A stretch of DNA of 64,000 bases from a virus. Made by a program: the position numbers and the translations under genes. The DNA lies in the IMG/VR virus record IMGVR_UViG_3300035145_003993, positions 147,365 to 211,364 of that record. One strand, written 5' to 3'. The notes beneath the pieces were generated by a model, which was not told where the DNA came from, did not search any database, and saw only the letters and a program-made list of their open reading frames with translations. Shown here in pieces: positions 19,792 through 43,015 of this stretch. Each line of letters opens with the position of its first letter. Within the stretch, counting starts at the first letter, position 1.

Positions 19792-20001
19792 ATGTACCAA
19801 ATTTTAGAAAATTATATACAACTTGTATTTGAAAACGAAAAAAATAAAAACAAAACGTTTAAAGATATACTTAATAGTTTAAAAAATAGTCAAAATCCTA
19901 AAAAGGTACTAAGAAATACAGATCCTATAGAAAGAAATACAGATCAAATAGGATTTGACCAATTAATTAAAAAATCTAGTAATTCTAATCAAACGCGTTA
20001 A
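19792..20001 (+). CDS. hypothetical 69-aa protein
   Basis: Plus-strand gene with a good AAAGGAAAA ribosome site. The N-terminal MYQILENYIQLVFENEKNK resembles the first residues of the HAD protein at 15912 and of the protein at 37562. The remainder is polar with two RNTD repeats. Its end overlaps the convergent dnaE stop by 17 bp. Function unknown. Confidence 0.65.
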   Translation: MYQILENYIQLVFENEKNKNKTFKDILNSLKNSQNPKKVLRNTDPIERNTDQIGFDQLIKKSSNSNQTR

Positions 20002-23000: not shown

Positions 23001-23080
23001 GTAATGTCGTAAACGTCAGAAGTCTCATCTATTTCTTCAATAATTTCAACTTCAATAAATTTTGTTTGAATGTCTTTCAA
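19985..23080 (-). CDS. dnaE: DNA polymerase III alpha subunit, C-terminal fragment carrying split-intein C half
   Basis: Residues 1-43 are an intein C-terminal half (block F VYDITVEGNHNFFANNI, block G LVHN followed by Cys44). From Cys44 the protein continues as family-C polymerase: rest of the PHP domain with TADSHYPS, catalytic aspartates in WPDIDTDAGD and FIKFDFLGL, finger and beta-binding regions, and an OB-like C-terminus. With the 203 N-terminal residues encoded at 24409-25017, splicing would give an 1191-aa DnaE, the normal length. The start is TTG with AAAAAGGAAT upstream, served by the promoter at 23100-23128. The phage replicative polymerase is thus bacterial-type, with no T4-like family-B polymerase in view. 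Confidence 0.95.
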   Translation of the reverse strand: MKDIQTKFIEVEIIEEIDETSDVYDITVEGNHNFFANNILVHNCLGGIYSNRILRGEVHNQSREQIQKELLNLTDRFVSCVGENNFKLELQFNKLEKQHTVNDYLIEHHKLTGIPLICTADSHYPSNEKWQARELYKKLGWLGKRDNLSLPEFEDLKCELYPKNASQMWEEFLDSYPTYEFYKGNEELVRDAINRTHDIVWNEFEDTWIDTGVKLPTINVPNKTPFQHLSSLVKDSLVSHGFHTNQVYVDRAKEELSDIKYLGHEAYFITMYEIFKKAEKKTLLGPGRGSGAGSLVNYLLGITQVDPLPYDLLWARFLGRHRVSWPDIDTDAGDRDELINAAKELYGNDAVIPVSNFNTLKLKSLIKDISKFYDIPYDEVNKVTGPLHDQVMKMAKGDDQEKSVFVLKHEDCKKYSPEYKDFMERYPEVETHIASLFMQNRAIGRHAGGVLVADPEHLETTMPIVGVRGELQTPWSEGLNFRNLEDNGFIKFDFLGLSLLKDIENCIYRILKKEGNNNPQFSDAKKFFDKHLNCRFHEQNDQDVWKHVYHDGRFVGIFQFTNTGARNFSLEAKPESIEELAALTAIYRPGPLKANVHKKYVKSKQNAEQIKYDHPIIEEVLGPTFSYVVFQEQFMLLAQKLSGFDPGEADKLRKTLVKNNLATMGNKKDEKTIAREKFIKGAKEINDVPEHISKKLWEEIEGFAVYGFNKSHAVSYAIDSYYAAWLHTHYETDWLATVLQSENGNPKGMSKVIAEIKALGYDISAIDINHSGSQWEYSEDLKSFVPPLTSLKGVGDKAVEEIFVNRPYNNLQDLFYNKEGEWKHSKMNKTAFSSLTKMEAFKSLQEFQDGTLDNHKQMHDLILDNYMILKKGSFGMTKTAIKKANKNGEEIIPIVEKLISQYRVVSDWSRSTKIKNYFELSNDANDDLLFPPSLVKKLKQKQINSIFDIPKGERGIGWFTVTEVIRKTTKNGKSFMRWKCVDIDNRSGWLRVWGDMEGEIEFTTWLADISNDVNWGMSSSLAKLKKINAFD
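22952..23080 (-). other. split intein C-terminal half (DnaE)
   Basis: 43 residues ending HN, followed by Cys as the +1 extein residue. Contains the block F/G pattern DITVEGNHNFFANNILVHN. Expected to pair with the N half at 24100-24408 and splice in trans; there is no endonuclease inside either half. Confidence 0.93.
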
Positions 23081-23099
23081 AATTATTCCTTTTTATTAG

Positions 23100-23128
23100 A
23101 ATATAATACAATTAGTTAATATTTACAC
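23100..23128 (-). promoter_or_regulatory. GTGTAAA-N16-TATATT promoter for dnaE C fragment
   Basis: GTGTAAA at 23122-23128 and TATATT at 23100-23105 with exactly 16 bp between. The -35 box lies in the last codons of the homing endonuclease, and the start site would fall just before the AAAAAGGAAT ribosome site of dnaE-C. It makes the second dnaE fragment independent of the first. Confidence 0.75.
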
Positions 23129-24062
23129 TTTCATTAATTAAATCAATTGTATTATCAATTTCATTTTCCCATATAATCAAGTAGTTATAGTTTCTTTTTT
23201 TTGCTATCTTCATTTTGTAAGAATCAGCATTCCAAATATCACCTGCTTTTATTTTTCCTCTTGGGAAATCAAGAATGCTATTTTCATTATATAGAGAAGG
23301 GTGTGCGTGCCAAAATAGACCATGGCATTCAATGATTAAATTAAACTTTGGCAGATAAAAATCATATATGTAACATCTTTTGTTGTATAATAATTCATCT
23401 TTTGTCAAATTAATTCGATATTGAATAGAATAGTCAATGTTATTTTCTCTTAATAATCTTTCAATTCTTTTTTCTGTTTTAGGTTGTGATGTTTTTTTAA
23501 GAGCACCAATTGCACCTTTAACAGCTCTTTCTGAAATTATTGCATTTGCATTATCCTTACTTAATCCTTTCTTAAGCCAAAACTCAATGCAAAATGGAGA
23601 ATTTGATCGTTTATAGTTAGATAAACTTTCTTTTGCATCTTCAATATTTTCCGTTTTTTCTATCCAATACTCTAAAGTTTGTTTTTGGTTGTAAGGTTTA
23701 CCTGACTTTTTTCTAGTTTTAACTGTTCCTTTTTGTCCTTTTAAAGAAGTCTTCAAATAGTAACTTTCAATTTCTTTTATTGAAGTGTTTTTTGGAAATT
23801 TAAACTGACTTCTGAATGCTGTTGAAGTTTTTTGATTATCTACATGAAGCTTAAAACCGATTTTGTCTTTTAAAAGAATAGAAAAAGTTTGCTGTGATAT
23901 ATTTAACTCATTAAAGCATTTTCTATTGTCACGATTAATCATTTGATATAACATTGAAAACGAGTAAAGTTTATTAATAAAACCTTGTATTTCTTCTTTT
24001 GAGTAATAAGAAAAAAGTATTTCTTCTCTAATTTTCCATATATTTGTTTTTTTTGTTTTCAT
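23112..24062 (-). CDS. Vsr-like (EDxHD) homing endonuclease between the two dnaE fragments
   Basis: 316 aa. The C-terminal 100 residues hold IYDFYLPKFNLIIECHGLFW, HAHP, a later KMKIAKK and YLIIWENEI: the very-short-patch-repair endonuclease fold with Asp, Glu, His and Trp in the EDxHD arrangement described for endonucleases inside fractured split-intein genes. The N-terminal part is basic, repeat-like and probably DNA-recognising (NUMOD-like). A strong AGGAGG ribosome site precedes the ATG. Presumably cuts intein-free dnaE alleles at the insertion site and spreads the whole cassette. Confidence 0.88.
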   Translation of the reverse strand: MKTKKTNIWKIREEILFSYYSKEEIQGFINKLYSFSMLYQMINRDNRKCFNELNISQQTFSILLKDKIGFKLHVDNQKTSTAFRSQFKFPKNTSIKEIESYYLKTSLKGQKGTVKTRKKSGKPYNQKQTLEYWIEKTENIEDAKESLSNYKRSNSPFCIEFWLKKGLSKDNANAIISERAVKGAIGALKKTSQPKTEKRIERLLRENNIDYSIQYRINLTKDELLYNKRCYIYDFYLPKFNLIIECHGLFWHAHPSLYNENSILDFPRGKIKAGDIWNADSYKMKIAKKRNYNYLIIWENEIDNTIDLINESVNIN

Positions 24063-24099
24063 TATATTATCCTCCTAGGCACATATTATATATTCTGCT

Positions 24100-24408
24100 T
24101 CAGAGGTTAATATTAATAATTATATCACCTTTAACAATATCTTTTGTATCAATCCATCCTTTGTCTTTAACAAGAACACGATGATCAGGTGTAAGTTTGA
24201 TTTCGTTACCTTCTTTGTCTTTAATTCTCATAAGCTTAGCACCTCCTCGGGTTTTGTCACCCCAGATTACTTTTTTAAATTCAGCTTTGCTAGTATATTC
24301 ATTATAAGAAAGAACTTGGATTTCTTCACCTTTATTAAATCTTTCTACAACTTCTTTAATAGATAGATTTCCAGATGAAGTTTGTAAAGTTGTGTCAGGA
24401 TGAAGACA
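24100..24408 (-). other. split intein N-terminal half (DnaE)
   Basis: 102 residues from Cys204. Block A is CLHPDTTLQT and block B is IKLTPDHRVLV with the catalytic Thr-x-x-His. It ends at a stop codon with no endonuclease domain, as in naturally split inteins. Confidence 0.93.
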
Positions 24409-25017
24409 AGCTGTAGATATGTGTAATCCTTCACCATGTTCTTGAAGCATTTGAAAATCAATACGTGGGTATCTATAAAAACCATATTTATACGATTTTT
24501 TAACTAAAGTAAATAAATTGTGAAGACCTTTTTGGTTTTTTGCTGTAACTACCAAATGATATCTTCTTTTCCACTCATCTTTAAGGATATCAACATTTTT
24601 TGTTTCATCTTCGTCTTCAACAACTAATCCGCCACTTTCATCATCTGCGTCAATATCAACTTTTTCTTTTGATTTCCTTTCAGCAGCAGCGGCAGATTTT
24701 GCGTCTTTTACTGCTTGTTTGTGAGCAGCATATTCTTCAGACCATTGTTGAAGTGAAGGAACAAAATAAAATTCAACTCCATAAATTTGTCTATAATTCC
24801 TTCCTGATTTTTGCATTCTAATTGTATGAGATCTTGCATGAGCAAGACCATTACCGTTACCATGGTCTGTTAGTGCCCATGCATCCATACCCTGAGATTC
24901 AGACAAAACAAAATCAATATGATCAGATGGGTATCCTAATCCATCGAATGTTGAAAACGTGCTGTGTGCATGAAGACCGACAAATCTATCTGGTGGTGTT
25001 ATTAAATCAATAGACAA
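24100..25017 (-). CDS. dnaE: DNA polymerase III alpha subunit, N-terminal fragment carrying split-intein N half
   Basis: Residues 1-203 are the PHP domain start: FVGLHAHSTFS, ALTDHGNGNGL, IYGVEFYF and RRYHLVVTAKN retain PHP metal ligands, so PHP-linked proofreading is conceivable. A charged insert lies at residues 85-125. At HISTA/CLHPDT the sequence switches to an intein N half (102 aa). The host gene resumes at CLGG in the other fragment; SxACLGG is a conserved DnaE stretch, which fixes the junction. The start is TTG with AAAGG upstream; an ATG is absent. Confidence 0.95.
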   Translation of the reverse strand: MSIDLITPPDRFVGLHAHSTFSTFDGLGYPSDHIDFVLSESQGMDAWALTDHGNGNGLAHARSHTIRMQKSGRNYRQIYGVEFYFVPSLQQWSEEYAAHKQAVKDAKSAAAAERKSKEKVDIDADDESGGLVVEDEDETKNVDILKDEWKRRYHLVVTAKNQKGLHNLFTLVKKSYKYGFYRYPRIDFQMLQEHGEGLHISTACLHPDTTLQTSSGNLSIKEVVERFNKGEEIQVLSYNEYTSKAEFKKVIWGDKTRGGAKLMRIKDKEGNEIKLTPDHRVLVKDKGWIDTKDIVKGDIIININL

Positions 25018-26772: not shown

Positions 26773-27003
26773 CTAAGTCTCAGATTTAGTTACCCACAGA
26801 CCGTCTTGATTTTCTAAATCCATTGTTTCTCTAGACGATCCATTTAAGTAAACAATTAGACCTTTAACAAAGTAATGATCTTGAATAATTTCTGTAACTA
26901 AACAGTTATTTTTTATCCTTTCACCATAAAAAAATATATCAATCATGTCACCTTCTTTTAACTGTGATACTTCGTGTATTTCATTTTTATAATTACTGGA
27001 CAT
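26773..27003 (-). CDS. hypothetical 76-aa protein
   Basis: Small beta-rich protein: VSQLKEGDMIDIFFYGER, NNCLVTEIIQDHYFVKGLIV. The 'L-K-E-G-D' turn followed by strands suggests an SH3-like barrel. Overlaps the end of the vWA gene by 11 bp. Function unknown. Confidence 0.75.
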   Translation of the reverse strand: MSSNYKNEIHEVSQLKEGDMIDIFFYGERIKNNCLVTEIIQDHYFVKGLIVYLNGSSRETMDLENQDGLWVTKSET

Positions 27004-28174
27004 TGATTTTAGGTTTTCCCCATCTAAGTGTTATTTGTGTATTGTTATTTAACATGTTTGTGCAAATATTAAAAGGTTCTACGTCATAGAATTTTAAAAT
27101 CTTATAAAGATCATCATACAAATAATCTATTCCTTCTTCCAAGATTTGGGTACCATTAAAAACATTTAAATCACCTTCAGCAATTACAGGACCTATCCTA
27201 CACATTATCTCTTCTATAATTGCATTAAATGCTGATTCAACTTGATTTGCATTAACAACGAAAGAGAATTCATTAGGAATTGTATTGAGTGTGTTTCCGC
27301 TTATAGACTGTAGTGCGCTTGTATTTGCATTGTCTACACCTAAAGTATATACAGTAATACAAGGATCTATTGCTGTAGAGTAAATGCAATTGTTATCATT
27401 AATATTTCTTATGTTGTTTTGAACAAAAGACTGAGAAGGCCCTGATCCTTCATTTGGCGATCCATCTGATATTAAGAGAATGTAATAAGACTCGTAGTTT
27501 GTCGTCTGTATTTGTGTCATTGCTTCTTGTAAAGGTGCTATAAAGTTTGTTCCACCTCCCGGACTTCTATTATTAACAATTGAAAGAACAGATTGCTTAT
27601 GCTGTTGATTTTTTCCTATACTTGAAGAAACTATTATATTACTATTGTATAATATAACAGAGTAACTTAAATTAAAATCAGAGTTAACAAATTGACTAAC
27701 TGTATCTCTAAGTTGAACTATTCTGTTTCCACTCATTGAACCACTATAATCTAAAAGCATTATTACAGCTGCATCTATTAAGTCAACGTCATGAACTTCT
27801 TCAGGGACAGTTATTATAACTGACTTGGTAGTTTGTCCGCGTCCTGGGTTATAAGAAGAAGTTATTCCGTATTTTCTATTACAATAGTTTTCAACACTAC
27901 ACTCTAGTCCTAGATCTATACATTGAAAGTTTGGTGTAACGTTAGTTGAAAGTGACGAAGCGCAATTATTTAAAAAATTAGGTGTACAAATTTCTTCAGT
28001 ACTATTTGTCTCAATAATAGAAATTCCTAGATTTACACTACAAGAATCTAAAACTTGTTTTTCTTCCAATATGTTTAAAGATATTCTACCGTATTGTATT
28101 GTTATAAATGCTAAAGTTGATAACACAGCAGACAATAACATAATAGTTAGTGCTGCAAATCCTTTGTTTTTCAT
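26993..28174 (-). CDS. von Willebrand factor A domain protein with prepilin-like N-terminus
   Basis: Residues 1-30 (KNKGFAALTIMLLSAVLSTL) form a short basic lead, a Gly-Phe junction and one hydrophobic helix, as in PilX/TadE-type pseudopilins. The segment at 40-110 has seven cysteines, suggesting an exported, disulfide-bonded domain. Residues 130-330 are a vWA domain with a complete MIDAS: DYSGS (142-146), Thr209 in GGGTN, and Asp237 in ISDGSPNEG. The C-terminal region is beta-rich. vWA domains with pilin-like leads occur in surface adhesins and pilus-tip proteins; in a phage this suggests export to the infected cell's envelope. No other secretion gene is nearby. Confidence 0.85.
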   Translation of the reverse strand: MKNKGFAALTIMLLSAVLSTLAFITIQYGRISLNILEEKQVLDSCSVNLGISIIETNSTEEICTPNFLNNCASSLSTNVTPNFQCIDLGLECSVENYCNRKYGITSSYNPGRGQTTKSVIITVPEEVHDVDLIDAAVIMLLDYSGSMSGNRIVQLRDTVSQFVNSDFNLSYSVILYNSNIIVSSSIGKNQQHKQSVLSIVNNRSPGGGTNFIAPLQEAMTQIQTTNYESYYILLISDGSPNEGSGPSQSFVQNNIRNINDNNCIYSTAIDPCITVYTLGVDNANTSALQSISGNTLNTIPNEFSFVVNANQVESAFNAIIEEIMCRIGPVIAEGDLNVFNGTQILEEGIDYLYDDLYKILKFYDVEPFNICTNMLNNNTQITLRWGKPKINVQ

Positions 28175-29053: not shown

Positions 29054-29263
29054 TTATAAGACATTAAAAGACATTATATTGTAAGGAACAATTTCAATTT
29101 CATTATTAATTAACAAGTAAATCATTGCATAAAAATTATTATCTTTTTTAATGTCTATTACTAAACCTACTTTTTCTTTTTCGTTCGAATATAAAAAATT
29201 ATATTTAATTATTTGACCTATTTTTAAATCTAAAATTAATTTTTTATTATTCTTAAACTCCAA
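29054..29263 (-). CDS. hypothetical 69-aa protein (TTG start)
   Basis: Beta-rich, SH3-barrel-like: LDLKIGQIIKYNFLYSNEKE, VGLVIDIKKDNNFYAMIYLL. Starts with TTG at 29263 overlapping the glycosylase stop by 11 bp; the ribosome site is weak. Resembles the 76-aa protein at 26773 in layout. Unknown function. Confidence 0.6.
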   Translation of the reverse strand: MEFKNNKKLILDLKIGQIIKYNFLYSNEKEKVGLVIDIKKDNNFYAMIYLLINNEIEIVPYNIMSFNVL

Positions 29264-30047
29264 TGACTTGTCTTTCTTTTACCCAATGTGTAGTTCTATT
29301 ATCTGGAGTTATTTCTTTAATTACTTTATATTTGTTATAATCTCTTTTTCTACCATAAACAACAAAACCTTGTGTAGCAGAACCAGATTCACCGTCAAAA
29401 GTATAATAGCTTTGAATTGTAGCTCCTTGCTGGTTGTATGACTTATTTATTACAAATCTAATTGCTTTGTCTAGTGTTACTAGGTTTTCGTCTGTTAAAT
29501 CTTTTATAAAAGAATAAGGATTAATACATGAATACCATAAAGACTCTGCTTTAATATAATTTCCAATTCCAGAAATTATATTTTGATTCATTAGAACACA
29601 ACATATATTTTTATGATTATACTTTCTTAAAATATTGACAAAATTATTAGGTGGATTAGAAAGCATATCAGGACCTATAGACTTAAGTTTTTTTTCTAAG
29701 TCTAATCTTTTTTTAATTTGAAAAGTGCCAAAATTTCTGGTGTCATTAAAGTAAAGAGTATCATTCTCATAGAAAGTAAACTCTATTCTTGAATGTTTTG
29801 ACTTTTCTCGAGACCAATTACCAGTCATTCCTAAAGTATTAAAAACAATTACATCACCTAAATCCATCCAGATGAACTTACCTTTGCAATTAAAGGATTC
29901 AATTTCTTTACCAAATAAAGATTTTATTCCTGGTATTGGCTTTTTTACATATCGTCCACTCAATACATTAACAGATTTAATCATATAGTATCTAAAGTTT
30001 TGATTTAGTCTTTCAACAAATAGTTTAACTTCAGGTCCCTCTGGCAT
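29253..30047 (-). CDS. Fpg/Nei-family DNA glycosylase with zincless finger
   Basis: 264 aa. MPEGPEV supplies the catalytic N-terminal Pro and Glu. IISGIGNYIKAESLW is the helix-two-turn-helix. The C-terminal finger keeps FVVYGRK and the hairpin Arg (NRTTHWVKERQ), but all four zinc cysteines are gone, as in the 'zincless finger' of NEIL1, plant MutM and mimivirus Nei. Removes oxidised bases by glycosylase/AP-lyase chemistry. With the photolyase it makes a small repair group in this region. Confidence 0.93.
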   Translation of the reverse strand: MPEGPEVKLFVERLNQNFRYYMIKSVNVLSGRYVKKPIPGIKSLFGKEIESFNCKGKFIWMDLGDVIVFNTLGMTGNWSREKSKHSRIEFTFYENDTLYFNDTRNFGTFQIKKRLDLEKKLKSIGPDMLSNPPNNFVNILRKYNHKNICCVLMNQNIISGIGNYIKAESLWYSCINPYSFIKDLTDENLVTLDKAIRFVINKSYNQQGATIQSYYTFDGESGSATQGFVVYGRKRDYNKYKVIKEITPDNRTTHWVKERQVIGV

Positions 30048-30264: not shown

Positions 30265-30550
30265 TAAATACCTCTAATATATCTTCATCTCTAAAATATA
30301 CTTTTTCATTATTTTCTCCTAATGCAACGTAATAGCCTAAAGGAAAATTCTTTGTTTGAAAATGTATAGGAATTGCTGTTATTTTTTCATTAGATTCTTT
30401 ATCAATAAATGATATTAAATAAGACTTTTCGAAAAAAAATCTTCTTTCAACCATTGTGTTATAAAGATCTTCGTATTTTGCTTTTTTATAGTGTTTTGTA
30501 TCTTTAAAAGACCAAAATTTAAGTGTATCTTTATTCAATCGCGTCTTCAT
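30254..30550 (-). CDS. hypothetical 98-aa protein
   Basis: Starts MKTRLNKDTLKFWSFKDTK; beta-rich second half (SYLISFIDKESNEKITAIPI, GYYVALGENNEKVYFRDED). I prefer the ATG at 30550 (GAAG upstream, 20-bp overlap) to the one at 30574, which has no ribosome site and a longer overlap. Unknown function. Confidence 0.7.
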   Translation of the reverse strand: MKTRLNKDTLKFWSFKDTKHYKKAKYEDLYNTMVERRFFFEKSYLISFIDKESNEKITAIPIHFQTKNFPLGYYVALGENNEKVYFRDEDILEVFSES

Positions 30551-30980
30551 AAGGTTCTTCAATAAATTCACCATTTTCTACTATTCTGTCAAGGTAATCT
30601 TCTAATTGTTCAAATGAAGTACAGACCTTAATACCACTTCTTGCTAACATTAAATTAAATTTAGCACCTTCAGGTAAACCTGCACAAAAATAAATAATAG
30701 GTTTGTTAAATGCAAAAGCATAACCAGCTTCCCAAATTGTTCCAATATCTTTGTCTCTAGTGTTTACTAACAAAAAGTCAGCTGTTTGAATGTGGTGAAG
30801 ATTACCTGTAAAAGTTTCGTCTTGCACACTTTTTGGTGCATTTGGAGGACAAATAAAAATTCTGCGAGGTGAAGCTAATTCAAAATTATTTGATCGATCA
30901 TCAAAAATTTTTTCAAGTTGAGTAAGTTCTTCGTCTTGTGTAGGATTAAACCAACCACTAGCTAAATAAATCTTTTTCAT
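30531..30980 (-). CDS. nucleoside 2-deoxyribosyltransferase-like protein
   Basis: 149 aa from the ATG at 30980 (AAAAGGAATATT ribosome site); the open frame extends further upstream. KIYLASGWFNPTQDEE and DKDIGTIWEAGYAFAFNKPIIYFC match the N-deoxyribosyltransferase fold, with the catalytic Glu in WEAGYAFA. Would exchange bases between deoxynucleosides or hydrolyse dNMPs, i.e. salvage or removal of unwanted nucleotides. Confidence 0.85.
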   Translation of the reverse strand: MKKIYLASGWFNPTQDEELTQLEKIFDDRSNNFELASPRRIFICPPNAPKSVQDETFTGNLHHIQTADFLLVNTRDKDIGTIWEAGYAFAFNKPIIYFCAGLPEGAKFNLMLARSGIKVCTSFEQLEDYLDRIVENGEFIEEPYEDAIE

Positions 30981-31061
30981 TAAAATATTCCTTTTATAAT
31001 AATTTTTTCTAAGTTTGTAATTGTTTTTCAATAAAGTTTACTATTTTTAATAACTTTAAAA

Positions 31062-32027
31062 TTAATTGTTGAATTGTTTTTTAACTTGATTTATGGCTCT
31101 TACATCATCATTCCACATCCTTGTAAAGATTTTTTCTTCACCAGATTTATTGCCGTTTAATTCTTCGCGGCGACAAGGGTAAATTGAATCTTCTTCATTG
31201 AATTCAAACAAATCGTTTTTAGGCTCTGGATGATATAAATTAGTTCCTTTTGAAGTAAAAGTACCATCTGCTTGTTTAACTCTAAATGTTCTAACATAAT
31301 GCATGTCAGGTTTTTCAAAATCTAAGCAAGTTGCAACTTCAGGAATTCTTTCAACAACTAGTCTTGCTATTTTAGTAGCAATAATATTATCAACCTCAGG
31401 CTGAATTTGTACATCTTGTCTTTGTTTAATAAGACCAATTAAATCTTTTAAATTAAACCTTGCAATATAAAATGTTTCGATAGATTTTGGCATAATAACT
31501 CTAGCGTCCATTAAAGAAATTAGTTTTGAATCTACCATATCAGAATATAATTGTTTTGCAGCAGCAGCAACTTCAATAAATCTATGGTAAAAATCAGAAT
31601 TTTCAATAGACTCTGGAACTAAAATATTATCGTGTCGTAGGTCTCTATCACCTGTGCATTGAGCAGCAAATGATCCTGCTCTGTGTCTAATTAAGTGTGT
31701 TACGGTTTGAGTATCAATACCACTTATCCTAAAAGTAAATCCTAAACATTCCATAGGCGTTGGTAAGGCTCTAAAATTTAGTACGTCTTGAAGGTTTTGT
31801 GAGGCCTCTTCAGGTGAAGCATTATTAAAGTCAGTTTCAAAAGGTCGATCAGCCCATGTTGCCTTGGTCATATTCCAAGCTATTTCTTGTGCTTGCTTTT
31901 GTGTTGGAGCATCAATCACTTCAATTTTAAGTGATTCTAAATTGTTAATATAGTTTGTAACAGGAACTTCGTTAAACTTTAAAAGCATAGGAAGTTGAAT
32001 CTTATCTAAATCATTATTAATTGGCAA
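31062..32027 (-). CDS. divergent ThyX-family flavoprotein (Cys in place of active-site Ser)
   Basis: 321 aa. It has the ThyX nucleotide/flavin core HLIRHRAGSF: Arg114-His115-Arg116 of the RHR motif are kept. Where classical ThyX has the conserved Ser ten residues after the first Arg, this protein has Cys124 (AAQCTGDRDLRH), and the following SRRY is lost. A C-terminal extension of about 60 aa follows. The start is TTG with AAGGAG and the promoter at 32055-32083. With a normal ThyX at 33782, this copy may modify a different pyrimidine, for example as a hydroxymethylase, or be a back-up synthase. Confidence 0.8.
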   Translation of the reverse strand: MPINNDLDKIQLPMLLKFNEVPVTNYINNLESLKIEVIDAPTQKQAQEIAWNMTKATWADRPFETDFNNASPEEASQNLQDVLNFRALPTPMECLGFTFRISGIDTQTVTHLIRHRAGSFAAQCTGDRDLRHDNILVPESIENSDFYHRFIEVAAAAKQLYSDMVDSKLISLMDARVIMPKSIETFYIARFNLKDLIGLIKQRQDVQIQPEVDNIIATKIARLVVERIPEVATCLDFEKPDMHYVRTFRVKQADGTFTSKGTNLYHPEPKNDLFEFNEEDSIYPCRREELNGNKSGEEKIFTRMWNDDVRAINQVKKQFNN

Positions 32028-32054
32028 ATTTTTTCTCCTTGTTATTTACCATTC

Positions 32055-32083
32055 ATTATAAAATTAAAAATTTTATTTTACAC
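32055..32083 (-). promoter_or_regulatory. GTGTAAA-N16-TATAAT promoter (divergent ThyX gene)
   Basis: GTGTAAA at 32077-32083, overlapping the stop of the upstream gene, and a perfect TATAAT at 32055-32060. A start site near 32048 leaves a short leader with AAGGAG. Confidence 0.8.
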
Positions 32084-32752
32084 TAAATTATTCTTTTTAC
32101 TAATCATATCTTCTAATTGTTCTAGTAAAACAATATTTTCTTTAAAAATTAAATTTTCTTTTTTTATTTTTGCAACTGCTTCATCAAATGTTAATTTATT
32201 TAAATCTTGATATGTTTTTAACACTTCATAATCACTATCTAATTCTGCTTTAATTGAATCAGACCTTTGTATGTCTATGTAAAAAATATTTCTATTAATT
32301 GCATATTGTATTTCTTTAACTAAATTTAAAAATATATCTTTTTTAAATGAAAAAATATTTTCTATATTAAGATTAGTAATAGAAGAATATTCAATTATTC
32401 CTTCATCATTTTTTTTGTCTGACTGAAAATAGAGTTTGCAATATTTATTTTTAATAAAAAAGAAAGAATAAGAATTTACTATTTGTAAATCGATTTCAAT
32501 TGTAAATTCATCGCAAAAATCTAAAGAGTGATTAAAGTTTGTTTGATATTTTTTACTAAATAACTGTGTATAGTTGCTTGTAAACGTTAAGTACATTATT
32601 CCTGGATCAATAACTAAAGTCATATTTCCAGTTTGAATGAGACCTAAAGAATAAATAATATCGTATTCGATTGTGTCCCAAACTTTACTTAAAAATTCAT
32701 AAGATCTAAATTTCTTGTTAGTATAAAAATCTAGATCTTCATGAAAAAACAT
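32078..32752 (-). CDS. hypothetical 224-aa protein
   Basis: Aromatic- and Ile-rich, mostly beta in the first 150 residues (DYDIIYSLGLIQTGNMTLVI is typical), then helical with a charged C-terminus. No motif recognised. Starts one base after the all-alpha dUTPase-like gene. Confidence 0.75.
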   Translation of the reverse strand: MFFHEDLDFYTNKKFRSYEFLSKVWDTIEYDIIYSLGLIQTGNMTLVIDPGIMYLTFTSNYTQLFSKKYQTNFNHSLDFCDEFTIEIDLQIVNSYSFFFIKNKYCKLYFQSDKKNDEGIIEYSSITNLNIENIFSFKKDIFLNLVKEIQYAINRNIFYIDIQRSDSIKAELDSDYEVLKTYQDLNKLTFDEAVAKIKKENLIFKENIVLLEQLEDMISKKNNLV

Positions 32753-32753
32753 T

Positions 32754-33140
32754 TTAATAACCTTTTTGTAGCCTTTTTCTAATTATTTCGTCTTTAATAT
32801 TAAATGCATTATAAAATTCATTAACATCAACGCCGATTAAAATCATTAATGAGAAAAAATAATTAAAAGCATCTACTATTTCTTCTAAAAATTCATCTCT
32901 ATCAATTTCAGGCATATCTGTTTCTCGATGAGGCTTCCAATTTTTTAAATGTTGAAGTGCCTCAAACATTTCTTCAACTCCTTTTAAAGCTGTTTCACGT
33001 AATAAATTTTGATTTTCTTTTTTTGAAATATCTACAGGCCATTCGTTTGTATAAGAATCAGGAAACTTATCTTGAATAAGTTTCATAAACGATTGTCTTT
33101 TATTAAAGATTTCAACAAGTTTATCATTTTCTAATGTCAT
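32754..33140 (-). CDS. all-alpha NTP pyrophosphatase, dimeric dUTPase-like
   Basis: 128 aa. LRETALKGVEEMFEALQHLK gives the EExxE metal motif, and FLEEIVDAFNYFFSLMILIG the ExxD helix. The C-terminal IRKRLQKGY matches the family's substrate-binding end. Closest in layout to dimeric dUTPases/dCTPases of phages. A trimeric dUTPase is also encoded at 42542, so this one may act on another dNTP such as dCTP. Confidence 0.82.
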   Translation of the reverse strand: MTLENDKLVEIFNKRQSFMKLIQDKFPDSYTNEWPVDISKKENQNLLRETALKGVEEMFEALQHLKNWKPHRETDMPEIDRDEFLEEIVDAFNYFFSLMILIGVDVNEFYNAFNIKDEIIRKRLQKGY

Positions 33141-33142
33141 AT

Positions 33143-33373
33143 TTATTGTACTTTTTCTTCTTGAGTTTCGCTTAACTTTTCTTGTGAATTAGATAACATT
33201 TTATTAATTTGTTCGTTAAAAATTTCTTGATATTGTTCGTTAACTGTAAGTTTGTTTTCTTCATTAATTTCTAATGATACCATCCTGAGATGGTCAACAA
33301 TGTCTGTTCCAGTTAAGATTGCCATTTGAATTAGTTTAGCAATATGTGCTATTGTAGTATCATGTAATAACAA
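33143..33373 (-). CDS. hypothetical 76-aa protein (TTG start)
   Basis: Helical: LLHDTTIAHIAKLIQMAILT, GTDIVDHLRMVSLEI, then a Gln/Glu-rich tail. TTG start with a strong AAGGAG site. Short coupled gene; the helical pattern could be a tail-end regulator or assembly protein. Unknown. Confidence 0.7.
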   Translation of the reverse strand: MLLHDTTIAHIAKLIQMAILTGTDIVDHLRMVSLEINEENKLTVNEQYQEIFNEQINKMLSNSQEKLSETQEEKVQ

Positions 33374-33383
33374 AATTTTCTCC

Positions 33384-33746
33384 TTAAATTACTACTGGTG
33401 ATTTGCTTAATTTTTGTGTTATAATATCTGAATCGTGATCTAATGCTTTAAGCATAGAAATACCTTCTATCGTTTTAATTGATTTTAAAACTGTTATGAA
33501 TTTATCTTTTCCTTCAACAAATTTTTCAATATATGAAACGTTTAATTCAATTATTCTATGACCATTTGAAGATACAATATCTGAAACTGGTCTTGTTTGT
33601 CTGACTGTTACGATTCCTGGTAAGGCCCTCATGTCAGTCATAATATCAAGAACTGTAGGGTCTTCTCTATCTTCTATTTTAATTCTACATCTAATTAAAG
33701 TATTAATTAAGTCTTCATGTCTTTCAACGAGTAATTTTTTCTTCAT
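33384..33746 (-). CDS. hypothetical 120-aa protein, ferredoxin-like fold suspected
   Basis: Pattern of strand-helix-strand repeats: NTLIRCRIKIEDREDPTVLD, MRALPGIVTVRQTRPV, HRIIELNVSYI, then helix and short strands. This suggests an ACT- or ferredoxin-like fold. No catalytic motif. Ribosome site AAGGAG. Not recognised. Confidence 0.7.
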   Translation of the reverse strand: MKKKLLVERHEDLINTLIRCRIKIEDREDPTVLDIMTDMRALPGIVTVRQTRPVSDIVSSNGHRIIELNVSYIEKFVEGKDKFITVLKSIKTIEGISMLKALDHDSDIITQKLSKSPVVI

Positions 33747-33781
33747 TAATAATCTCCTTTATAATGTAGTAATTATTTCTT

Positions 33782-34504
33782 TTACTCGTGATTATTAATA
33801 TAACTGTTAACAGTTTCTGGCCAAAGATCTTTAATAATATCTAACATTCTAAATGCTAATTGTTGAATTTCCCATTGAGCTCCTTCATGTGTTCTTAAAT
33901 TTATAAACTTTAATATGTTATTTAAATTCGCAGAAGCGTAATATTCTGTATAAAGATTTTGTGGTAAAATTCCACGCGCTTGTTCTCTGCATATACCATT
34001 GTTTACTAAATCATCAAATAATTTTAAAGAATTTTTGTGATAATTTTTAATAACATTCGATGCTTTAGTTTTAATTTTAACGCTACTTACTGCAGAGTCA
34101 ATTTCTAATATAGGATCAATTAATTCATCTTGATTTGAAGATTGTCTATTTGATTTGTGTTGAGTTCTAAATTGATTAGGTTCATAAAATTCTATATTAG
34201 AATCTGTATATCTTCTAGAGATTTCGTTGTATGACCAAGTTCTGTGTCTATGATGTTGTGATCGAACAAATAATGGAACTTTAATTCTAAAAGTTGCAAA
34301 ATTATGTTCTAAAGTAGATGTATGTTTATGTTTAATTAAATAATTAATTAACTTTTTATCTTTATTATCAAGACTTTCTTTGTGAACTCCGAATGATACC
34401 CTTGCTGAATTTACTATTGTAATATCTTCGCCAACATATTGAACTAATTCTATTTTTCCTATGCCATCTTCATACAGATTTTTTTCAATAGTATCTATTT
34501 TCAA
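33782..34504 (-). CDS. thyX: flavin-dependent thymidylate synthase (classical ThyX)
   Basis: 240 aa. The complete ThyX signature RHRTWSYNEISRRYT at residues 86-100 includes the RHR motif and Ser96. N-terminal LVQYVGEDITIVNSARVSFG and the C-terminal LNNILKFINLRTHEGAQWEI are typical. Converts dUMP to dTMP using methylene-THF and FAD/NADPH. TTG start with AAGGAT. With dCMP deaminase, TK and dNMP kinase it completes phage dTMP supply. Confidence 0.95.
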   Translation of the reverse strand: MKIDTIEKNLYEDGIGKIELVQYVGEDITIVNSARVSFGVHKESLDNKDKKLINYLIKHKHTSTLEHNFATFRIKVPLFVRSQHHRHRTWSYNEISRRYTDSNIEFYEPNQFRTQHKSNRQSSNQDELIDPILEIDSAVSSVKIKTKASNVIKNYHKNSLKLFDDLVNNGICREQARGILPQNLYTEYYASANLNNILKFINLRTHEGAQWEIQQLAFRMLDIIKDLWPETVNSYINNHE

Positions 34505-34509
34505 ATTTA

Positions 34510-35274
34510 TTATCCTTCACTTTTTTGATTATTTAATGGCTTTTCAAAGTGATAAAAAGCTCCTCCTGTGTGACCGTCGTGAATTAGAGTTGCAAAACAC
34601 CTTGCAACAGGACCACCTAATTTATCCTTAAGTTTTTTATAAAAAGGATGATTTTTAATTTCTTTTGGAATTCTCCACGAAGAAGATGTAGAATATCCTG
34701 TATCATATTTAATAAAGTCAAACCCTGTATCTGTACCTAGCTTAATAAAATTTTCATGAACTGGAAAGTTAACATGTCCAATTTTATGTTCCTTTTCAGG
34801 TGAATGAAATTGTGTGTCTTGTGTATTCATTGGGAATCCTAGTACCATTCTCCCACCAGGTCGAAGAACTCTATAAAGCTCTTTCATAATATATGGATAA
34901 TTGTGGTCTTCAATATGTTCAAAAACTTCTGACGAAACCATGATATCAAACATTTCGTCACTATATGGGAGTCCTGTTGTGATATCATGTTGCTTTAATT
35001 GAAATTTGTTACTTTGCTTAGACCAAGCCATATCGATATATTTTTGTTGATAGTCAATACCATAATACTCAGTAAAAACAAAAAGACTTTTCATAAATGT
35101 CCAGAGTCTACCATTATAACATCCAATATCAAGAAGTTTTGGCTGATTTTTTCCATCATATCCATTTGAAGAGCACCACTTACGAACAGCTTCAACTAAA
35201 TAATTTTGAGAAAAAACAATAAATTGACAATCAATTAAAGTTTGTGGGTGAGACTTTTTTTGTATCGCAGCCAT
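34510..35274 (-). CDS. class I SAM-dependent methyltransferase
   Basis: 254 aa. Motif I LLDIGCYNGRL, motif II YYGIDYQQKYIDMA, MFDIMVSSEVFEHIED (motif IV) and VLRPGGRMVLGFP are standard for Methyltransferase_11-type enzymes. There is no DNA-MTase DPPY/NPPY motif, so the substrate may be a small molecule, glycan or protein. Sits between ThyX and the endolysin, under the promoter at 35325-35353. Confidence 0.9.
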   Translation of the reverse strand: MAAIQKKSHPQTLIDCQFIVFSQNYLVEAVRKWCSSNGYDGKNQPKLLDIGCYNGRLWTFMKSLFVFTEYYGIDYQQKYIDMAWSKQSNKFQLKQHDITTGLPYSDEMFDIMVSSEVFEHIEDHNYPYIMKELYRVLRPGGRMVLGFPMNTQDTQFHSPEKEHKIGHVNFPVHENFIKLGTDTGFDFIKYDTGYSTSSSWRIPKEIKNHPFYKKLKDKLGGPVARCFATLIHDGHTGGAFYHFEKPLNNQKSEG

Positions 35275-39501: not shown

Positions 39502-40563
39502 TTATCCTTGACAGCTTAAACATTCATCAGGATCAGCGAAATCTTGTAACTTATCTTGCTTAACCTTCTGACTAACCTTTTCAGCTGAAGCTCCTGCGTT
39601 TGTCCTTAGATAATATAATCCTTTTAACTTCTTTTTCCAAGCTCTAATATGTACTGCATTAACATAAGATTTATCAGTACCAGCGGGAAAGAATAAATTA
39701 ACACTTTGACCTTGGCAAATAAATTCTTGTCTATCACCTGCGTGATCTATAATCCATCTTTGATCTAATTCAAATGCTGTTTTAAATACTTCTTTATGCC
39801 AATCTGACATGTATTCAAGGTGTTGAACAGATCCTTCTGCTAAGATAATAGATTTCCATTGTTCATTCATCCAAGATTCAATATCAATTTTTTCTACATT
39901 GTCAGCATACTCTCTTAAAACTTTTTCTAAGTGATGATTTTTCACTAAATAAGAACCTACTCTTGTTCTATGTGTATATGCATTACTTTTCCAAGGTTCA
40001 ATAGATGGTGAAGTCCCTGCAATAATAGAAGAATTAGCATTTGGAGCAATTGCTAATAGATGAGAATTCCTAACTCCGTAACCAGATCCATCAGGACATT
40101 CACCTTTTTTAATCGCCAACTCTTTTGTACGCTGTTTTGCTTTTTCTTTAATTAATGAGAATATATTAATATTTGTTGCTTTTGCAATCCCTGATTCAAA
40201 CGGAATATTTTTTGATTGAAGATAGGAGTGAAATCCCATTGCACCTAAACCAAGTGATCTTTCTCTCATAGCGGAAAATTTTGCTTTGTGCAAATAGTCA
40301 GGAGCATTTTCAATAAAAAATTGTAGGACGTTATCTAAATACTCTATTAAATCTTCAACAATATTTGTGTCTTTCCATTCATCAAACTTTTCAACATTTA
40401 GTGAGCTTAAACAACATACTGCACTTCTTTCAGGAGATGTTGCCAAATGGATCTCATTACAATTGTGAACGAGCATGTTATTTGCAAAAAAATTTTTATT
40501 GTCTTTAACAGTTATGTCAAAAACAGGTTCTTTTGTTTCTCTTTTAATTATTTTTAATCCCAT
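39502..40563 (-). CDS. nrdA: ribonucleotide reductase alpha subunit, C-terminal fragment carrying split-intein C half
   Basis: Residues 1-34 are an intein C half (VFDITVKDNKNFFANNMLVHN). From Cys35 the NrdA sequence runs CNEIHLAT, then SAVCCLSSLNV, the barrel and a C-terminal CLSCQG redox pair. Cys35 aligns with the thiyl-radical cysteine of the N-L-C-x-E motif, so the splicing nucleophile and the radical residue are the same. With residues 1-282 encoded at 41682-42527 the spliced enzyme would have 601 aa and no ATP-cone. A start with AAAGGTAG lies inside the end of the GIY-YIG gene (20-bp overlap). Confidence 0.95.
   Translation of the reverse strand: MGLKIIKRETKEPVFDITVKDNKNFFANNMLVHNCNEIHLATSPERSAVCCLSSLNVEKFDEWKDTNIVEDLIEYLDNVLQFFIENAPDYLHKAKFSAMRERSLGLGAMGFHSYLQSKNIPFESGIAKATNINIFSLIKEKAKQRTKELAIKKGECPDGSGYGVRNSHLLAIAPNANSSIIAGTSPSIEPWKSNAYTHRTRVGSYLVKNHHLEKVLREYADNVEKIDIESWMNEQWKSIILAEGSVQHLEYMSDWHKEVFKTAFELDQRWIIDHAGDRQEFICQGQSVNLFFPAGTDKSYVNAVHIRAWKKKLKGLYYLRTNAGASAEKVSQKVKQDKLQDFADPDECLSCQG
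40462..40563 (-). other. split intein C-terminal half (NrdA)
   Basis: 34 residues, block F/G KNFFANNMLVHN, followed by Cys at +1. Similar in style to, but not the same as, the DnaE C half at 22952-23080. Confidence 0.93.
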
Positions 40564-41302
40564 ATTTTCTACCTTTTATCCATTCTTCACTGTTAAGTGC
40601 ATCGATTTCTTTTTTGCTCATTTGTTTTGAAACTTTAAGTTTTTCGTTAGTGTACCAATTTTTTCCTGATAATGACTTAGAAAGTTTATTATTATGGCTA
40701 TTCGTTCTTTTATATTTAAAATCACTGTCATTTAAGTTATACAAATCTTTCATTGCGTTTACAAAACCTTTTAAGCCCGATCCATATTTTTTAAATCTAA
40801 ATTTTGAATAAGACTTTGGAAAACCATAAACTTCTGAACTATATATTTGCCACTTTCTTTTAGGTAGCTGTCCTTCTTTTTGAAAATAAGTAAAAGCTGA
40901 TTTTAATATTTCTTCATCAGTAAAACCTGTGTATGTTGGATTTTTTTCTCCTGATGTTGCAATAGAATTTTTTAGTCGCCATTCACTATATTTTTCATCA
41001 GGAACTATCCATCCACCATCACCACCCGTAGTCATATTATAACCCTTTTTAAAAGTATCATAATATTCAATGTAATACTTTTCTTTTTCTAAAGCTTCTT
41101 TTTTAGTATAACATTCAAAAATTATTTTAGATACTATATTTTTAGGACCGTATTTTCTAATTGCTTTATAAAAATGTGTATCATGACCTGATTGTGCATT
41201 TGTAATATGTTTGTGTAGTCTTTTTGACAAAGTTAGTCCAGTGTATCCAATGTATGACTTGTTTGTTTGTTTAAAAGTGTGCATGTATATTATATATTTC
41301 AA
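40544..41302 (-). CDS. GIY-YIG homing endonuclease between the two nrdA fragments
   Basis: 252 aa. YIIYMHTFKQTNKSYIGYTG is the GIY-YIG motif, followed by the conserved Arg/His region LHKHITNAQ and the catalytic Glu in ALEKEKYYIEYY, then YNMTTGGDGG. The C-terminal part is basic and probably binds DNA. TTG start with AAGGAG. It is unrelated to the Vsr-like enzyme in dnaE, so two different endonuclease families occupy the same niche. Confidence 0.93.
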   Translation of the reverse strand: MKYIIYMHTFKQTNKSYIGYTGLTLSKRLHKHITNAQSGHDTHFYKAIRKYGPKNIVSKIIFECYTKKEALEKEKYYIEYYDTFKKGYNMTTGGDGGWIVPDEKYSEWRLKNSIATSGEKNPTYTGFTDEEILKSAFTYFQKEGQLPKRKWQIYSSEVYGFPKSYSKFRFKKYGSGLKGFVNAMKDLYNLNDSDFKYKRTNSHNNKLSKSLSGKNWYTNEKLKVSKQMSKKEIDALNSEEWIKGRKYGIKNN

Positions 41303-41360
41303 ACTATCTCCTTATGTTAGTAAATGAATTTCAACATTAAATATACATCTAACAATCAAA

Positions 41361-41681
41361 TTAAGAAAAAACTAATTCATCGTCTTCTTTAAGATCTTTA
41401 GCTTTTACATATCCTCTATTTACAGTATATACTTTGTGATCAGGAGTACAAACAATTTTTTTACCAGTTTCTTCATCTATTATTTCAAGTACTTCTGCAC
41501 TTTTACTAATTAATCCTGCATCAGTAATTTCTTTGTATTCAATTTCTTTTGTATCAATATTATAAGACAACACAAAAATTTCTTTTCCTTCATGAAAAAG
41601 ATCAACAACTTCTTCTAATGATACCTGTGCATTTGGCACATTGTCAATTAACACATCAATCTTCGTATCTCCTGTTAAGCA
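41361..41681 (-). other. split intein N-terminal half (NrdA)
   Basis: 106 residues from Cys283. Block A CLTGDTKIDV, block B KIVCTPDHKVYT, ending NRGYVKAKDLKEDDELVFS at a stop codon. The ending strongly recalls the NRGYVRADEL-type end of the NrdJ-1 split intein, known from environmental phage sequence. Confidence 0.93.
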
Positions 41682-42527
41682 AAGATTTGATCCATGTATC
41701 TTAAGTCCTAAATCTTTTTGATATTGAGGTAAGTGTTTATTTGCTTCTGAAATGAAGTTAATATATGGCTCGCCTGTTCTAAATCTGACTTTTAGTATTC
41801 TTTGCCATAATTCTCTTGCGTCAACTGTGTCTCTTATTGTTTTATCATTAGGATCAATTAAATTCCATTTTTCGCCTTTAGATACTGCTTCCATAAATTC
41901 GTCTGTTACATTTACTGCATTGTTTAAATTAAAACATTTACGATTTACGTCTCCTCCTGTTGGAAGTCGAATACTTAAAAATTCAATAATATCAGGATGA
42001 GAAACATCCATATAAGCTGCATAGCTTCCTTTCCTAGTTTTTCCTTGTCTATAAGCAGTCATATCACTATCTGCAGATTTTAAAAAAGGAATTGGTCCTG
42101 GTGATATTGAAGAATTAGATCTAACTTTAGACCAATGACCTCCTACACCACCACCTTTTACAGACATCCAACGTAATTCATTTGAATGATCTATAAGACC
42201 TTCTAAAGAGTCATCAACATAACTTAAAAAACAAGAAATAGGAAGTCCTAATTCTGTACCACCGGGAACGGGAGCATTAGATAAGATTGGAGAACTAAAC
42301 ATAAACCAACCTTTTGCCGCGTAATTATAAATTCTTTGTGCAAGTGACAAATCATATTTTTTATTTTGAAAATCGTAAGAGAATGCTACAGCTGCCCTTG
42401 CAAAACTTTCTTGAGGAGACTCCTCGTGATCTTGCATATAATAGTCTCTAAGTAATTTTCGTGAAAAATTTGTTAATTTATCGTCATAATCTAAGTTAAT
42501 ACTAATACCATAGCATTCTTTTTTCAT
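41361..42527 (-). CDS. nrdA: ribonucleotide reductase alpha subunit, N-terminal fragment carrying split-intein N half
   Basis: Residues 1-282 are NrdA: FSSPILSNAPVPGG, LPISCFLSYVDDS (first active-site Cys99), WMSVKGGGVGGHWSKVRS and HGSNL at the junction. The allosteric ATP-cone is absent. Residues 283-388 are an intein N half of the NrdJ/NrdA-type. Reduces ribonucleoside diphosphates after trans-splicing with the downstream fragment. Directly follows dut by 14 bp. Confidence 0.95.
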   Translation of the reverse strand: MKKECYGISINLDYDDKLTNFSRKLLRDYYMQDHEESPQESFARAAVAFSYDFQNKKYDLSLAQRIYNYAAKGWFMFSSPILSNAPVPGGTELGLPISCFLSYVDDSLEGLIDHSNELRWMSVKGGGVGGHWSKVRSNSSISPGPIPFLKSADSDMTAYRQGKTRKGSYAAYMDVSHPDIIEFLSIRLPTGGDVNRKCFNLNNAVNVTDEFMEAVSKGEKWNLIDPNDKTIRDTVDARELWQRILKVRFRTGEPYINFISEANKHLPQYQKDLGLKIHGSNLCLTGDTKIDVLIDNVPNAQVSLEEVVDLFHEGKEIFVLSYNIDTKEIEYKEITDAGLISKSAEVLEIIDEETGKKIVCTPDHKVYTVNRGYVKAKDLKEDDELVFS

Positions 42528-42541
42528 ATTTTATTCCTTAT

Positions 42542-43015
42542 TCAATCTGAACTTCCGATTTTACCTTTTTTTCTTGTAGAAAGTTTGGATAGATTTAAGT
42601 ATTCTTCTTCGCCAATTTCAGAATATTCGTTGTCACACTTAACTACAATAATTTGAACAGGAAGTTTTTCGCCATGTTTTATATTATACTCTTCGTTACT
42701 AACGTTTACAAGATTTACAAATATTTCACCAGTATAACCTTCATCAATTACTCCAGCACGATATTTCAAAGGAGTTTTTGTAATTGATCCTCTTTCTTTA
42801 ATTAAAGTTACATATCCAGGAGGAGTAAAAACGTGTAAACCTGTTGAGACCATTGATCCTTTTTTATTATTTAAGGAAGGCATTATTGATACATCATCAC
42901 CTGAATTGTACAGATCTAGTCCCGCACTTTCACCGTTATATGCTGGAACATAATTACTTATATTATTAGATTTTAAAACTTTCTTTAATTCTTCTTTACA
43001 ATAAATCTTAATCAT
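42542..43015 (-). CDS. dut: dUTPase (trimeric)
   Basis: 157 aa with the five trimeric-dUTPase motifs: AGLDLY, KERGSITK, the uracil-binding hairpin YRAGVIDEGYTGEIFV, the K-LPVQIIV strand and the C-terminal RKKGKIGSSD arm. Makes dUMP for ThyX and keeps uracil out of DNA. Overlaps the helicase gene by 8 bp. Confidence 0.95.
   Translation of the reverse strand: MIKIYCKEELKKVLKSNNISNYVPAYNGESAGLDLYNSGDDVSIMPSLNNKKGSMVSTGLHVFTPPGYVTLIKERGSITKTPLKYRAGVIDEGYTGEIFVNLVNVSNEEYNIKHGEKLPVQIIVVKCDNEYSEIGEEEYLNLSKLSTRKKGKIGSSD

Follow-up and report, generated by a model that had tools for sequence, protein, structure and literature searches.

Two ThyX-family genes in one gene run

A 64,000-nucleotide stretch of DNA from a large marine phage, referred to here as the window and comprising positions 147365-211364 of the 211,364-base virus record IMGVR_UViG_3300035145_003993, contains two genes encoding proteins of the ThyX superfamily (PF02511), as an initial annotation made from the sequence had indicated. 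Both genes lie on the minus strand within a close-packed run of genes of the same orientation, and both open reading frames (ORFs) were confirmed at the coordinates first given. The gene at 33782-34504 encodes a 240-residue protein with an intact RHRTWSYNEISRRY motif, which scores 173.7 bits against TIGR02170 thyX (cut-off 87.9) and 161.9 bits against PF02511; it is a canonical ThyX, the flavin adenine dinucleotide (FAD)-dependent thymidylate synthase. The gene at 31062-32027 starts with TTG (MPINN) and encodes a divergent 321-residue protein, termed ThyX-C here, which contains LIRHRAGSFAAQCTGDR and the motif LIRHRAGSFAAQC124TGD127R. Its PF02511 score of 65.5 bits is above the curated cut-off of 24.8, which is passed also by the ThyX-C proteins of all 40 records behind ThyX-C loci, while its score against the TIGR02170 equivalog, at 49.3 bits, is below the cut-off (best of 38 relatives, E 3.3e-16).

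The ThyX domain of ThyX-C ends near residue 235, so that the C-terminal tail, previously put at 60 residues, is approximately 86 residues long (about residues 236-321; 31062-31322, minus strand). The tail is conserved (HYxxTFR..TNLYxP..ND.F...D.IY..RxExNG), is absent from canonical ThyX, and is predicted to be ordered and confidently folded. A 50-nucleotide gap with a good AAGGAG ribosome-binding site precedes the gene. The strong promoter that had been proposed for it is not supported, however, since 25 sigma-70-like promoter matches were counted in 30400-34700 compared with a mean of 28.3 in shuffled sequences, with none exceeding 9/12 near 32027. A near-identity DNA search of phage records returned no match.

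An AlphaFold model of ThyX-C was built with 38 aligned relatives, as a single, ligand-free chain, while the ThyX active site is oligomeric. The model has a predicted local distance difference test score of 90.8 and a predicted template modelling score of 0.87, and all of its leading structure matches are ThyX proteins (Foldseek E 1.1e-10). VIA-align placed it closest to M. tuberculosis ThyX (3gwc; Z 17.4, root mean square deviation 2.9, 212 residues), followed by T. maritima ThyX (1o26; Z 16.4) and PolB (4p5b; Z 16.3). ThyX-C is therefore predicted to have the ThyX fold.

Base pocket and clade of ThyX-C

Compared with canonical ThyX, or flavin-dependent thymidylate synthase (TIGR02170; 1o26, 3gwc), ThyX-C shares the fold, PF02511, the RHR motif and the equivalents of R147, R174 and Q180, but has S88, R90, Y91, E86, Q75 and H53 (T. 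maritima numbering) all replaced in a fixed way; it also adds an N-terminal part of about 25 residues and the 86-residue C-terminal part, with 18-20% identity in structure alignments. Residue counts at positions 86-92 were taken from 123 unique ThyX-C sequences by ungapped distance from RHR, because a MAFFT alignment of mixed canonical and variant sequences gapped the recognition segment; the ungapped count agrees with the equal Ser-to-Pro spacing in M. tuberculosis ThyX. Cys124, seven residues past RHR, falls at the Ser88 position. Within the recognition segment VTH111LIR114HR116AGSFAAQC124TGD127 (residues 109-127; 31647-31703, minus strand, as computed from the ORF), H111 corresponds to Q75, R114 to R78, R116 to R80, G126 to R90 and D127 to Y91. 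Where canonical ThyX has RHR-x7-S-x-R-Y, then, ThyX-C reads RHR-x7-C-T-G-D. The retention of RHR, the cysteine at the serine position and the loss of SRRY had all been recognised by the initial annotation, and are confirmed; indeed, they were understated, the change being far beyond a point change.

Alanine, cysteine and aspartate occupy positions 86, 88 and 91, respectively, in all 123 sequences, in place of Glu86, Ser88 and Tyr91, and histidine replaces Gln75 in 123/123. Since the cysteine and aspartate are invariant, their presence is not attributable to chance. Arg90 has been lost throughout (Gly in 121, Ala in 2), position 89 is Thr (113) or Ser (10), and position 92 is Arg (113) or Lys (10). 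R78, R80, R147, R174 and Q180, conversely, are retained in 123/123, and position 79 is kept as His or Tyr. The arginines of ThyX for FAD, phosphate and base (R78, R80, R147, R174) are thus all present, and the retained set indicates that the nucleotide and flavin site of ThyX-C is likely to be intact.

The roles of these positions are known from related enzymes. In T. maritima ThyX, S88, R90 and Y91 aid methylene transfer, and their loss slows the enzyme, in the case of Y91A more than hundredfold (PMC8316439). In PolB, a ThyX-fold UMP/dUMP methylase, uracil O4 is bound by R98 and the ribose by E94, and the choice of substrate is influenced by Y99 (PMC5003785). On the equivalences given by our alignment, the PolB counterpart of position 86 contacts ribose O3', that of position 88 phosphate, that of position 90 both uracil O4 and phosphate, that of position 147 phosphate and that of position 174 uracil O2, while the counterpart of position 91 is the residue with an influence on substrate choice (PMC5003785). 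Mapping these contacts onto ThyX-C indicates that the O4 reader is lost and that an invariant acid has been gained beside it. The site is thus preserved where it meets the phosphate and O2, whereas the O4 end and the catalytic tyrosine have given way to a fixed Cys-x-x-Asp, a pattern of new constraint rather than decay. PolB itself (polyoxin biosynthesis; 4p5a/4p5b) is likewise a ThyX paralogue whose substrate range has changed, and some Streptomyces have it in addition to a normal ThyX. However, PolB is not a phage protein, keeps Ser96, Arg98 and Tyr99, and carries its changes in other loops.

ThyX-C forms a separate clade of the PF02511 superfamily. A tree built from 60 sequences unites all 27 variant rows with 100/100 support, and the stem that leads to them measures 4.55 changes per column. 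Relatives are encoded at 55, 171 and 206 places in three IMG/VR scans. Outside marine contigs, a relative in Geobacillus phage GR1 shows 43% identity over nearly the full length, and relatives were found on 36 Bacillus plasmid records, with sizes of ~84 kb among those listed, B. subtilis DSM 10 included. The plasmid pBS32 of B. subtilis strain 3610 is 84 kb in size (PMC6751061), and by matching size and gene set we identify the Bacillus plasmids as pBS32-type. A scan of one genome per prokaryote species returned a single contig, a phage-like stretch in a Euryarchaeota metagenome-assembled genome, and for this reason ThyX-C looks to be viral or plasmid-borne rather than chromosomal, within the sensitivity of that scan. 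It is, then, a widespread, phage-only enzyme family that is present also on a B. subtilis plasmid-prophage.

Its sister in the tree, with support of 97/85 but on long branches, comprises ThyX-like proteins of Pbunavirus, Carpasinavirus and Onyinye type, which share 'DAR.I.P..ET' and 'FNL..L'-like features with ThyX-C, but keep R90 (RTRTGAYQQETSR, RSRRAAFHQQSMR), lack Cys-x-x-Asp and are about 25% identical to it. These proteins (L061 4968-5885, L059 5040-5798 and L060 4851-5783, respectively) constitute a second unusual ThyX-like group in their own right, with RTR or RSR for RHR, Thr or Ser at position 88, Tyr91 lost, and a cysteine-containing C-terminal tail. In Carpasinavirus XcP1 (L059) a gene annotated as 3-oxoacyl-ACP reductase lies two genes past the ThyX-like gene.

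Neighbouring genes and co-resident thymidylate synthases

The gene run that carries both ThyX genes, all on the minus strand, includes an S-adenosylmethionine methyltransferase (34510-35274). Between canonical ThyX and ThyX-C lie genes for unknown proteins of 120 residues (33384-33746), 76 residues (33143-33373) and, directly upstream of ThyX-C, 224 residues (32078-32752), together with an all-alpha NTP pyrophosphohydrolase-like protein of dUTPase_2/PRA-PH/MazG type (32754-33140; GVEEMFEALQHLKNWK..EEIVDAF; phrog_12184, 6.9e-16). Downstream are a nucleoside 2-deoxyribosyltransferase-family protein (30531-30980; PF05014, 1e-12; nearest structure 6evs), for which an ATG at 30980 is the likely start although the ORF extends to 31031 with TTG, and an Fpg/Nei-like protein (29253-30047; MPEGPEV start), whose family was assigned by eye rather than by profile. 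The latter, judged by that start to be a DNA glycosylase family member, may have modified pyrimidines that are damaged or deaminated as its targets. Elsewhere on the minus strand are a trimeric-type dUTPase (42542-43015; phrog_135, 3e-21; PF00692), a dCMP deaminase-family protein (15474-15890; PF00383, 4.3e-23) and a thymidylate/deoxynucleotide kinase-like P-loop protein (18838-19728; phrog_761, 7.9e-14).

Gene company was counted within seven genes of ThyX-C at 72 loci with ThyX-C proteins less than 88% identical. The deoxyribosyltransferase-family gene was present at 64/72 loci and the NTP pyrophosphohydrolase gene at 66/72, always on the same strand; the kinase-like family (20/72), the Fpg/Nei-like gene (25/72) and the unknown 120-, 76- and 224-residue proteins (21/72, 48/72 and 18/72, respectively) were less constant. 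Profile-based counts gave 63/71 and 66/71 for the two principal partners, compared with 0/80 and 0/80 near canonical ThyX in a control set consisting of a single, cyanophage ThyX type; hits of the ThyX-C profile within that set were disregarded as cross-hits to canonical ThyX. Members of the pyrophosphohydrolase family match dUTPase_2 in 13 of 14 cases and PRA-PH in five, mostly weakly. Nine of 22 ThyX-C records, this genome included, encode a separate trimeric dUTPase, and in those records a dUTPase role for the all-alpha enzyme is therefore not needed. A dCMP deaminase is present in 16 of the 22, and GR1 and the Bacillus plasmid additionally carry a YfbR-like 5'-deoxynucleotidase and thioredoxins.

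A second PF02511 protein was found in 22 of the 40 records behind ThyX-C loci (23 of 41 with the window's own record) and a ThyA in one more. S-x-R-Y is intact in each of the 22 second ThyX copies, which belong to three lineages (P0002-like, L189 and cyanophage-like), an indication that ThyX-C has been joined with unrelated dTMP synthases several times.

Several other features of the window were noted. DnaE and the ribonucleotide reductase alpha subunit (19985-25017 and 39502-42527) are each split into two ORFs with intein-like halves at their ends (..CLHPDTTLQT.. / ..NHNFFANNILVHNC..; ..CLTGDTKIDVL.. / ..NKNFFANNMLVHNC..), with an endonuclease-like ORF between the halves (23112-24062, and GIY-YIG-like at 40544-41302). 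These are probably split inteins with free-standing homing endonucleases, an arrangement known in environmental phages. The window also encodes a 543-residue GroEL-like chaperonin (533-2164) and a protein at 26993-28174 that is unusual for a phage, its N-terminal segment being membrane/pilin-like and followed up by a VWA-like domain (VIMLLDYSGSMSG).

Candidate reactions of ThyX-C

The initial annotation reasoned that a phage needs only one dTMP synthase, and that the second copy may instead (hydroxy)methylate dUMP or dCMP. This interpretation is partly supported. The case that the second ThyX does something else is strengthened by its old and strictly conserved clade, by the repeated pairing, and by replacement of the O4-reading and methylene-transfer residues, such that a reaction other than dUMP to dTMP is the best reading of the sequences. 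Both suggested substrates fit, but the evidence leans to dCMP, because the uracil-O4-reading arginine is lost with an invariant aspartate fixed beside it, and because the company of PRA-PH and dCMP deaminase matches that of metagenomic contigs with modified cytosine, which encode thymidylate synthase, PRA-PH and dCMP deaminase domains (PMC8670742). The same gene set is found on one contig here, with ThyX-C in place of ThyA. ThyX-C would, on this reading, be a flavin-dependent C5 one-carbon transferase that most likely converts dCMP to 5-hydroxymethyl- or 5-methyl-dCMP, and we put the probability of this at about 0.4.

In the ThyX reaction, flavin relays a methylene group from folate to C5 of dUMP, where it is subsequently reduced, and intermediates that precede reduction yield 5-hydroxymethyl-dUMP upon acid quench (PMC4913046, PMC3498832). 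In the unrelated ThyA fold, which phages use for dCMP hydroxymethylases, the switch from dUMP to dCMP is an Asn to Asp change in the base-reading site (PMC8670742; PMC5175136). The change in ThyX-C is of the same kind and affects the same end of the base, with the carbonyl-facing donor (Arg) gone and an acid fixed adjacent to it. Having kept the fold and the flavin and phosphate arginines while its base pocket was rebuilt (Cys-x-x-Asp for Ser-x-Arg-Tyr), ThyX-C would use reduced FAD and methylene-tetrahydrofolate to attach a one-carbon group to a pyrimidine deoxynucleotide, most likely dCMP, at C5, as is done in T4 by dCMP hydroxymethylase, an enzyme of unrelated fold. In this scheme the linked pyrophosphohydrolase would both provide the monophosphate and eliminate the normal triphosphate. 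Unwanted nucleotides or nucleosides would be taken away or exchanged by the linked deoxyribosyltransferase-family enzyme, and the product would be phosphorylated by a phage dNMP kinase to the triphosphate that the phage polymerase uses.

In phage T4, gp42 is the dCMP hydroxymethylase, gp56 the dCTPase and gp1 the dNMP kinase. The proposed logic is shared, in that a thymidylate synthase-like enzyme, an all-alpha NTP pyrophosphohydrolase, a dNMP kinase and a dCMP deaminase occur in one phage. However, gp42 has the unrelated ThyA fold (PF00303), for which this genome (G000) gave no match, a result that bears on family membership only and not on whether the enzymes work alike. To our knowledge all phage nucleotide-hydroxymethylating enzymes have the ThyA fold, T4 gp42 and the SPO1 enzyme among them, whereas the model of ThyX-C has that of ThyX. 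In mildiomycin biosynthesis, similarly, the product of MilA, a thymidylate synthase-like pyrimidine hydroxymethylase, is hydrolysed by the N-glycosidase MilB (PMC5175136). MilA, however, is of ThyA fold and acts on CMP, and for the phage deoxyribosyltransferase-family protein the nearest structure is the N-deoxyribosyltransferase 6evs. A literature search found nothing that joins ThyX with 5-hydroxymethyluracil, hypermodified DNA, deoxyribosyltransferase or GR1.

A number of observations weigh against the dCMP reading. Among the 22 ThyX-C records, GR1 and those of Bacillus type lack a dCMP deaminase, and this genome has neither a GT2 glycosyltransferase nor a carbamoyltransferase, other glycosyltransferase families not having been searched. 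Decorating enzymes are infrequent across the same records (GT2 in 5/22, carbamoyltransferase in 1/22), and bare 5-hydroxymethylcytosine or 5-methylcytosine needs none; a GR1 protein annotated as 'glycosyltransferase' matches nothing in Pfam and was not counted as evidence. The sole record with a carbamoyltransferase (PF02543) match (G002 134502-135137, the record of L089) is 284 kb in length and also has GT2 genes. The PF02543 carbamoyltransferase family has been shown elsewhere to decorate hydroxymethylcytosine.

R174, which activates dUMP, by a proposed route via uracil N3 (PMC8316439), is a further weak point, since its retention would suit dUMP equally. ThyX-C could thus be a dUMP hydroxymethylase that leaves the methylene intermediate unreduced, giving 5-hydroxymethyl-dUMP, as the ThyA-type enzyme of SPO1 does, and partial replacement of thymine, with the canonical ThyX alongside providing the remaining dTMP. 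The quench product described above (PMC4913046) shows that ThyX chemistry can give this compound, and there is a precedent in Bacillus phage SP-15, likewise a large phage with two Thy1 proteins (gp9 and gp130) and, close by, a gene of the deoxyribosyltransferase family. Hypermodification affects about half of the thymine of SP-15, and gp130 was proposed to make hydroxymethyl-dUMP (PMC5977210). Loss of the O4-reading R90 in 123/123 sequences argues otherwise, and gp130 is not detectably a member of the ThyX-C family, as it lacks the motif and blastp detects no similarity; we regard a dUMP hydroxymethylase as unlikely, although more probable than the two readings that follow. The SP-15 protein (L210 2070-3311) is itself a very divergent Thy1 protein of 413 residues, with the SDR-like gp129 directly upstream and the deoxyribosyltransferase gp127 nearby.

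Neither a second ThyX nor a ThyA was found in 17 of the 40 records, many of them possibly fragments but including the complete GR1, and in these ThyX-C could be the dTMP synthase, although Bacillus-type hosts have ThyA. A plain, diverged dTMP synthase, perhaps with another donor, oligomer or regulation and serving as a redundant or other-stage copy, would agree also with the thymidylate synthase annotations in GR1 and the Bacillus plasmids, with the folding of T. maritima S88A and S88C variants (3g4a, 3g4c) and with the retained activity of the Ser-to-Ala variant (PMC4913046). It is nonetheless improbable, given that R90 and Y91, whose loss strongly slows T. maritima ThyX (PMC8316439), are absent from all members, that the strictly conserved new residues point to a new role, that pairing has recurred with three canonical lineages and one ThyA, and that the linkage to the two partner genes is unseen near cyanophage ThyX.

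Finally, position 53 is Leu in 122/123 sequences, whereas His53 is invariant among aligned canonical copies. This is another weak point of the dCMP reading, since folate handling may differ or be lost. Together with Glu86 to Ala and H178 to Gln, the loss of His53 would suit another flavin chemistry or none, as in a folate-free nucleotide-binding protein such as a reductase or a subunit that modulates canonical ThyX. A nitroreductase gene adjoins ThyX-C in GR1, and the title of the 3ge9 entry describes a structurally atypical Corynebacterium glutamicum ThyX that is dispensable for thymidylate. We rank this explanation last, however, as the flavin- and nucleotide-site residues (R78, H/Y79, R80, R147, R174, Q180) are kept and, as regards a modulating subunit, there is no canonical ThyX for it to act on in GR1 or in the Bacillus plasmid-type record.

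Conversion of dCMP is preferred as the reaction of ThyX-C. A fuller account, possible but tentative, would make ThyX-C the first dCMP C5-(hydroxy)methylase to depend on flavin, a ThyX-fold enzyme that arrived independently at the reaction of T4 dCMP hydroxymethylase through loss of the O4-reading arginine and fixation of Cys-x-x-Asp. On this account it would act together with the linked NTP pyrophosphohydrolase and deoxyribosyltransferase-family enzyme to produce DNA with modified cytosine in many marine phages and in the B. subtilis plasmid-prophage pBS32. The question is experimentally approachable, because the gene cluster occurs in a phage in culture, GR1, and on plasmid-prophages of B. 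subtilis (DSM 10). If the account is true, modified phage DNA would have a second origin, based on flavin and the ThyX fold, which could bear on restriction and other DNA-sensing defences and would account for many of the 'second thymidylate synthase' annotations in large marine phages.

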